DNA of 64,000 bases, from positions 37,068,155-37,132,154 of the forward strand of contig CM037869.1 in assembly GCA_021292105.1 (NCBI GenBank). The letters are read 5' to 3'. Within the stretch, counting starts at the first letter, position 1, and each line of letters opens with the position of its first letter. A program made the translations under genes and the position numbers. The stretch is from Anadara kagoshimensis. Lineage: Eukaryota > Mollusca > Bivalvia > Arcoida > Arcidae. Below are positions 47,601 through 50,600 of this stretch, piece after piece. A model generated the notes under the pieces. The model was not told the origin of the DNA and did not search any database. It worked only from the letters and a program-made list of their open reading frames with translations.

Positions 47601-50600
47601 TAGGCCCTGAAGGTACATGTGCTTCAATCCTTATACTTTTATAATTGGGAAAGTGCTTGTTAGCATTTTTTATGACAACACTTTAAGCCCTGAAAATAAA
47701 GTAGAATGTATTGATGACGTTTTAACCTCCTGTCAAAATTTTTTTCACCCACATTTAGGTGGTCAGTTCTGGGATAGAAGAGGAAACTGCAGTACCCGAG
47801 AAAACCTGCAACCTGGGTTAGGCAGGTTACCACTTCACAGAGGTTTTTCATACACAGGAACTACTCAGATAATAACTGCTAGAGACTGGTGACTGCTCGT
47901 TGGAGGTGACAGCTAACCCAGGTTTTACTGTATCAACACTGATGACTTATATACTTATGTACTTACTCATGCCTGTTATCTGTCAACTGTTTGATGATCT
48001 GACAGTAGATTTCATCTCGAAGTATTTCCTGTTATAGATAAATACAATGATTTTTAAGACGAGGTAATTTTCAAAAACTTTCAACTTAAACACCATAACA
48101 TCAAATCTTTTTGCATTCATGTAACATTACAAATATGGACAAATATGGCTTTAACAATAGTCTCAGTTGGCAAACTAAAGGGTCAATAGCCCCATGGTCC
48201 CTTTTTGAATGAACACTGCACCTGACAAACCAGAATGACAAATTTAGAATGTCATGTGTTAATTTTTTCAACCTATACAAAAATTCGAAAACCATAATTA
48301 GTCAAGCAGATTTTTCTTGAAGCATCACATTGCTAAAAAAACATTTCATCAATACTGTACATGCTGACATTCCCGGAGCCCTAATGGAACCTTTTATTTC
48401 ATATACATATACTTACGCTCTTGAGTGGTGGCTCAAATATTTGATCTGTAAGCTCATTAGCTGCCCGTCCTCGTTTAGACGGATGGTCTCCCATATATTT
48501 AAGGAGTGGTATGAAAGGTTAAGGATAATATTCTGCCTAAGAGTTCTGAAAGTCTATCTCAAAGTTTTAACAATATATTGAAAGTTTCGACTATCTAAAC
48601 TGAAATTTCTAAAAACTTCTGACTACCGGGCACCTATCTGAAATTTCTTAAGTTCTGATAATCTATTTGAAAGTTCTTATATTCTTTCTGACGTTCTCAC
48701 AATAAATCTGATTTCATATTTTACAGAGAATCTATGCCCCATAAACTTTATAAACTGTGGCTGATGCTGACACAGATGCCAAGGATATTTTTATTTTTAT
48801 TTATCTCTTTTATTTATTTATTTATTTATTTATTTATTCAATTACTTATTTATTGATATATTTTATTTTTTACATTTTTGAAAGCGAGCTAACTACACCA
48901 AAAAAATTATGATCTAAAATCAACATATAAAGGATATCCAAGAAGCACATACAAGCTTCCTGACTAAGCTCGTCTCTTCCTAGGAGCTTCTTAAGTAATG
49001 GTTGTTTTAGTGGCTCCTTGGAATGGCGCCACAAATCATCTGGTTTCCTCCTTCTGGCTGTAGATAATGTCTTTGTTAGTGTTCTCTTTGGTGGTGGTCT
49101 GTAAGAAATGACAATGTACTCTATGAGATCACTCCATATATATTTTATAAACAAGACTTATAGATTTGTCAACAACTACGGTACATAGTTGGTAGAGTGC
49201 TCGCTCCATATGTGGGAAGTCATGTAGTTGAGTAATGGTGTTTAACGTCCCAGTCAAGAATATTTCACTTATATCGAGACGTCACCAGCTATAGGCAAAG
49301 GTGCAGAGATTTTGCATGTGCATTGCGCTTATGGCATTATACAGCAGGGTTCTTTAGCGTGCCAAGCCCAGCGTGACATGGGACCTAGTTTTATTTTAAG
49401 TTCCCATCCGAAAGAACCATGACTTTCATTTCGTAATGCCGAGTGCTTGGCCAAAGAACAGTCACTACCCACTTTTAAGTCTTGGGTCAGACCCGGCCGG
49501 GGTTCGAACCCACGACCTTCCACTTATGGAGCGAGCACTCTACCAACTGAGCTACCGCAGTGGTTTCTGGGAAGTCATGGGTTTGAACCCTGGCTTGGGT
49601 CTTGACAAAGACTTGACAATAGCTAGTGACTATTCTTTCTCCAAGCACTTGACATTAGTTAATCAACTAATTTACTGACTTAAATAACATTTTTTTAAAT
49701 TTTTTCTTAAAATTGTTGTTAAATGGTGAAAATTATGTCATGTGTCTAGATGATTAAATCTTATTTTTCTATAGGAAGATAACTGTATTATAATACACTT
49801 ATAATAGTATTCCTCTCAAGTGTGGGTTTTTTATAAAGGAAGATAACTGTGTTATTACTTGAAATGACCGTAAGAGTATTCCTCTGGAGTGTGTGGTTTT
49901 TATAAAGGGAGATAAATGTGTTATTACTTGAAATGACCGTAATAGTATTCCTCCGGAGTGTGTGGTTTTTATAAAGGGAGATAAATGTGTTATTACCTGA
50001 AATGACCGTAAGAGTATTCCTCCGGAGTGTGTGGTTTTTATAAAGGGAGATAAATGTGTTATTACCTGAAATGATCATAAGAGTATTCCTCCAGAGTGTG
50101 TGGTTTTTCTCCAGGTTCTGTCCTGTCCTCTTCTTCAGCTTTTGGCAACATGCCCTGTGGATCTGATGACTGAATGAACAAATTCTGAAAAGACAAACAA
50201 AATTAGAACTGTCAGTGAAGCTGACTTTTACACATATAGCTTTCGTCATGTGTTCATGAGAATTCCATATCATCTAACAACTTCATGTTAGGATAATTAA
50301 GTAAAATAAATCTGATGAAACTTATAAGCTCATGGCACACAGGTAGAATAAAATTCAGAAAAACTGAATCATGCATAACTGGAAAAATAAACTTCCAAGA
50401 TAACAAAATATTGTCACCCTTCAAAGAAATGTCTCGCATAGCAATTGGTTAACTTGCCAGGGTATATAAAACTACATTGGGAGATCTGCCAATGTACATA
50501 TAGTTACGGTAAACAAACATGGCGACAAAATATGTAAGTGACACAGAATACGACATCGAAGTTAAACAGACTTTACTATTACTGCTTTGAAAGGCGATAA

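Follow-up and report, generated by a model that had tools for sequence, protein, structure and literature searches.

The Myosin VIIa Tail Gene and Its Surroundings

The 64-kb window from Anadara kagoshimensis, by which we mean the whole stretch of DNA analyzed here, carries on its minus strand the tail part of a predicted myosin VIIa gene, which we modeled as 30 exons and 29 introns (table 1), starting from IQ-like repeats around position 63960 and with the motor domain lying outside the window. Building of the model began with tblastn guided by the human protein, after which alignment scores were computed for the joints. Alignment with this same protein also supplied the names of the upstream part (IQ motifs, first MyTH4-FERM and SH3); libraries were searched with the last 529 residues. 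Pfam found MyTH4 and FERM parts in this 529-residue tail, which matched the myosin VIIa chain 5MV9 over residues 23-526 with an E value of 1.5e-255 and 852 bits, versus E values of ~1e-190 to 1e-189 and 632-638 bits for three myosin VIIb chains. By its closest tail match the gene would be myosin VIIa, in agreement with an earlier sequence-only reading of this DNA, even if pairwise matches, as opposed to a tree, would not tell it apart from a VIIa/VIIb ancestor.

Exons 6-30, once joined, form an open frame of 1,215 residues whose only stop is the terminal one. In exon 4 the frame slips by one base at a run of six A (62030-62025), past which the segment NEPVNESDL leading into VDQMFDW reads in another frame; this suggests an assembly error or else a broken allele. 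The end of exon 16, together with its donor, is tandemly repeated in the next intron (49802-50108, minus strand; 69-nt unit, 4.4 copies, 94% matches), and GTAATAAC is found again at 49996, 49927 and 49858 besides the true exon 16 donor at 50065; a later copy, if used, would meet TAA at once. A SINE-like element at 49235-49565, with what we take from resemblance to be a tRNA-like head, gives, as a 331-nt query, 22 other BLAST pieces within the window, seven of them longer than 310 nt at 68-88% identity and some situated in introns of the myosin VIIa gene (46678-46352, 59389-59080). The sole Rfam match in the window, a tRNA at 42720-42783 just above the cut-off, is not among these pieces.

Elsewhere in the window, the plus strand holds a C2H2 zinc-finger frame (23018-25628) with an internal 24-nt tandem repeat (25182-25297), which appears to slip near 24000 and near 24280, as seen in overlapping ORFs, possibly because of single-base assembly errors. 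On the minus strand, a 200-residue open frame at 19016-19618 has a GIY-YIG domain (Pfam E 1.1e-5) and is perhaps, by resemblance, the end of a Penelope-like retroelement, and a 540-residue C2H2 zinc-finger open frame at 2947-4569 has an in-frame DLDLPDVVNKQN-type repeat upstream (72-nt unit, 4090-4448).

Table 1. Coordinates of the gene model and of the features in and around intron 17
Feature	Position	Strand	Remarks
Myosin VIIa tail model	35658..63963	-	30 exons and 29 introns, to stop codon 35660-35658
Exon 4	62126-61997	-	
Exon 6, start	60549	-	
Exon 16, start	50184	-	
Exon 17	48938..49098	-	161 nt, upstream of intron 17; end EACMCFL+G
Intron 17	48509..48937	-	AT-AC, 429 nt, phase 1, predicted U12-type; joint scoring and motifs
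5' splice site	48929..48937	-	ATATCCTTT, 9/9 to RTATCCTTT; sole copy in the window
Second ATATCCTT within intron 17	48781..48788	-	possible decoy donor
Branch-site motif	48518..48526	-	ATCCTTAAC, 8/9 to TTCCTTAAC; second A at 48519
AC acceptor	48509..48510	-	use restores FLALLKYMGD
Second AC	48506..48507	-	3 bases on (ACCAC); one residue lost if used (FLVLKYMGD)
Exon 18	48417..48508	-	92 nt, downstream of intron 17; start CACTCCTTAAATATATG

A Predicted AT-AC Intron between Exons 17 and 18

The intron separating exons 17 and 18, for which the sequence-only reading had given exact coordinates, has matched and not mixed termini, AT-AC. Exon 17 ends with ...TGCTTCTTGG and exon 18 begins with CACTCCTTAAATATATGGGAG, while the first and last letters of the intron are ATATCCTTT and ATCCTTAACCTTTCATAC, the sequence at the joint being TTGG/ATATCCTTT on the donor side and TTCATAC/CAC on the acceptor side. 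The peptide across this joint is EACMCFLALLKYMGD, with which EACLAFIAVLKYMGD of PDB chain 5MV9 is aligned; the joined codons therein, CFLALLKYMGD against AFIAVLKYMGD in 5MV9, bear out the FLALLKYMGD that had been read before. By count, the joint is residue 94 of the 529-residue tail and the Pfam MyTH4 match starts at residue 115. Its earlier placement within the second MyTH4 domain is thus valid under a wider definition of the domain but not under that of Pfam, in which it lies ~21 residues before the start of the match.

Intron 17 is the only AT-AC intron among the 29 of the model, but borders 4/5, 5/6, 8/9, 15/16 and 25/26 were set by eye with canonical dinucleotides, so that the figure of 28 GT-AG introns out of 29 is partly by construction. 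We therefore also give the automatic choice among GT-AG, GC-AG and AT-AC, which took in 27 joints (4/5 and 5/6 being left out) and found GT-AG best in 25 and AT-AC in two, namely intron 17 (score 77) and exon 8/9 (score 13). Intron 17 is the only AT-AC pick with strong homology; exon 8/9 lies in a weakly conserved linker, where AT-AC scores 13 versus 5 for the adopted GT-AG. At joints 15/16 and 25/26 the automatic best is a GT-AG pair other than the adopted one. The acceptor of intron 17 has two ACs 3 bases apart (ATACCAC), of which the first suits the homology and the second gives the third-ranked join in the automatic choice.

Rival joins across exon 17/18 were searched with donors at 48985-48891 and the acceptor side at 48560-48456, and more widely with donors at 49060-48601. 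The claim that AT-AC bounds keep frame and homology is upheld by this search, since the AT-AC join is the best of the 1,975 joins that stay open and in frame, whatever their dinucleotides (score 183). At least 11 neighboring joins with arbitrary ends (GC-AC, CT-CC etc.) score 179-181, none of those listed having a known splice pair; these near-equal scores mean that homology leaves the exact cut uncertain by a few bases. The call of the intron class rests accordingly on the motifs together with the failure of GT-AG, and not on homology alone.

This failure is evident in both search ranges, where no GT-AG or GC-AG join keeps the homology across exon 17/18; in the wider one the best GT/GC-AG join scores 247 versus 293 for AT-AC. 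If the real intron had a nearby GT-AG pair of the major class and the AT-AC reading arose by chance, it could use the one open in-frame GT-AG join at 48898/48488, and 88 of 200 shuffled strands do contain a U12-like combination. Such a join, however, scores 137 against 183 (rank 683 of the 1,975, the best for GT-AG), swaps the conserved ALLKYMG for intron sequence and starts from GTGTAG, a poor donor, all of which makes this explanation very improbable. The GTATGT donor at 48952, proposed previously as a possible refutation, fares worse, with a best score of 102 versus 183 and CMCFLALLKYMGD deleted, and the AT-AC join stands. It stands also against skipping of exon 18, likewise raised before, which is rejected by length, as removal of 92 nt would break the frame. 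RNA folding of the intron region was less stable than that of shuffles (z +2.41).

Splice Signals of the Minor Class

Donors and branch sites were scored as match counts, and not with a published weight matrix, against RTATCCTTT and TTCCTTAAC, strings which we take to be the U12 donor and branch-site consensus. On this count the donor of intron 17 matches at 9/9, confirming that it is an exact consensus, and its branch site at 8/9, the top score among the 29 introns of the model, whereas the other 28 introns have donor matches of 3-6/9 and best branch matches of 5-7/9. Over the two strands of the window together, ATATCCTTT and ATCCTTAAC occur once each, both in intron 17. U12-type introns usually have no distinct polypyrimidine tract; in intron 17 pyrimidines occupy 14 of 18 positions before the AC, no fewer than the 11-16 of the GT-AG introns, so that such a lack does not show in this count, to which the branch motif adds by lying inside the counted stretch. 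The last intron base is 10 nt from the second A of ATCCTTAAC, as the sequence-only reading had approximately noted, and 11 nt from the first; this spacing is close enough for a U12-type intron and lies at the short edge of the 11-13 nt optimum between branch and 3' splice site (PMC3584512, extracts). The signals described for the class are ATATCCTT at donor positions +1 to +8 and TCCTTAAC at the branch site (PMC2831892, extracts). We counted phase 1 in favor of the U12 reading because minor introns avoid phase 0 (PMC10639083, extracts).

The two strands of the window contain six copies of ATATCCTT in all, and one of the five besides the true donor lies inside intron 17, at 48788, in range of the same branch site. 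This second copy is a possible decoy minor donor, the use of which would keep an in-frame stop in the mRNA.

AT-AC introns removed by the major spliceosome do exist (PMC2831892, extracts), and intron 17 might be handled in this way, as has been reported for SCN4A intron 21. The U2-dependent introns of sodium channel genes are alike in their AT-AC termini but have G at position +5 (PMC2831892, extracts), whereas intron 17 has C there, with a full U12 donor (9/9) and an 8/9 branch site. We have rejected a U2-dependent AT-AC intron on this +5 position, and regard removal by the major spliceosome as highly unlikely. As little credit is due to the view that the joint is an accident of damaged sequence, through an assembly error or in a dead gene copy. 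The one-base slip of exon 4 and the two apparent slips of the zinc-finger frame at 23018-25628 suggest that single-base assembly errors may occur here, but errors of this kind do not make a donor matching at 9/9, a branch site at 8/9 and a well-spaced AC, and exons 6-30 are open down to the stop. With these alternatives weighed, we predict from the sequence that intron 17 is very probably a U12-type, or minor-class, AT-AC intron.

Chance Occurrence of the Signals

When the minus strand was shuffled 200 times with its dinucleotides kept, 88 of the shuffles contained at least one combination of donor, branch site and acceptor; the mean was 0.705 donor-branch pairs, compared with two in the real strand, both involving the branch site of intron 17; the second AC (table 1) is also inside the branch-to-acceptor distance allowed in this test. 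Given these 88 shuffles, U12-like signals alone are not rare in such AT-rich sequence, and away from an exon joint they mean little. Of 20,000 shuffles of intron 17, 32 had a branch site scoring 8/9 or better and suitably spaced from the 3' end; for a perfect donor 9-mer at one given position the chance would be of the order of 1e-5 or less. The improbable part is that the signals are placed exactly at the required exon joint, and there they are decisive.

Comparison with Other Animals

The Ala residue at the joint is, by count, residue 88 of the 527 in 5MV9, and becomes residue 1776 if the chain ends, as we assume, at residue 2215; the protein alignment puts the cut, in phase 1, within the codon that corresponds to human Ala1776. 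We take human MYO7A exon 38 to be c.5169-5326 (158 nt) and exon 39 to be c.5327-5480 (154 nt), so that c.5326 would presumably be the first base of codon 1776 and the c.5326/c.5327 border would be human intron 38. Exons 18 and 19 together (92 + 62 = 154 nt) have the length assumed for human exon 39, and exon 17, at 161 nt, exceeds the 158 nt assumed for human exon 38 by the one residue that is extra here in the 5MV9 alignment. The human numbering is anchored by Lys1810 and Glu1812, which are contained in human exon 39 (PMC5008642, PMC4370767, extracts), and therefore places the cut at Ala1776. The c.5326/c.5327 border itself was not found in print among the matches listed, as far as their extracts go. 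On these assumed borders and the arithmetic, the position is probably shared with human intron 38, and since the codon (Ala1776) and phase agree, by alignment, with the assumed exon 38/39 border, the intron is probably old. The intron of the first MyTH4 domain (60333-59629, phase 0) was rejected as a same-place counterpart, for it lies at a different position.

We give roughly even chances to the view that the bilaterian ancestor had a minor AT-AC intron at Ala1776, which was kept in this animal and turned into a major GT-AG intron in vertebrates, a reading that takes both the human intron class and the shared position as assumptions. The conversion would then have affected a gene now linked to deafness and blindness. 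Conversions from the AT-AC subtype are uncommon, accounting for 5 of 79 single-subtype clusters with conversion (PMC2831892, extracts).

The 19 U12 introns listed for Drosophila include those of pros, Syx6, Epac and PHB2, with nine AT-AC rows in the table versus eight in the text of the paper (PMC2831892, Table 2, extracts). The AT-AC members share with intron 17 their termini, and have the class ATATCCTT donor and TCCTTAAC branch site, but differ in host gene, since crinkled, the fly myosin VIIa, is not in this list (PMC2831892, extracts). Molluscs have been described as having comparatively many minor introns, and in humans ~26% of minor introns are of the AT-AC subtype (PMC10639083, extracts). 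In the extracts of the literature searched, MYO7A or unconventional myosins and U12-type introns are named only apart; introns of annotated genomes at this position may be present already in the intronIC surveys of >3,000 genomes (PMC10639083, extracts). No relatives were confirmed among 3 and 27 pattern matches in viral and genome contig collections, which are non-animal and thus carry little weight.

Proposed Splicing and Implications

The U11/U12 particle of the minor spliceosome recognizes the donor and branch site, and U4atac/U6atac and U5 then join. In intron 17, U11 would pair with the donor and U12 with ATCCTTAAC, U6atac would take the place of U11, and the minor spliceosome would ligate TTGG to CACTCC, forming the Ala codon G/CA that matches human Ala1776. 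Rfam found no minor snRNA within the 64-kb window, a result with no bearing on the rest of the genome. Were the intron retained, 22 residues would follow CFL before a stop, with loss of the MyTH4 and second FERM; because of this stop, we propose that full-length myosin VIIa in Anadara kagoshimensis would need minor splicing.

Gene prediction limited to GT-AG would probably misannotate the exon 17/18 joint, and a model held to these dinucleotides would drop or scramble conserved sequence in the second MyTH4 region, making this a clean case for annotation. Taken alone, it is one more intron in a class already catalogued in many genomes (PMC10639083, extracts), and the AT-AC intron of myosin VIIa, though convincing, is an ordinary addition to this rare but known kind. 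Should lineages prove to differ at this position, some with a U12-type and others with a U2-type intron, a much-studied disease gene would supply a case of minor-to-major conversion.
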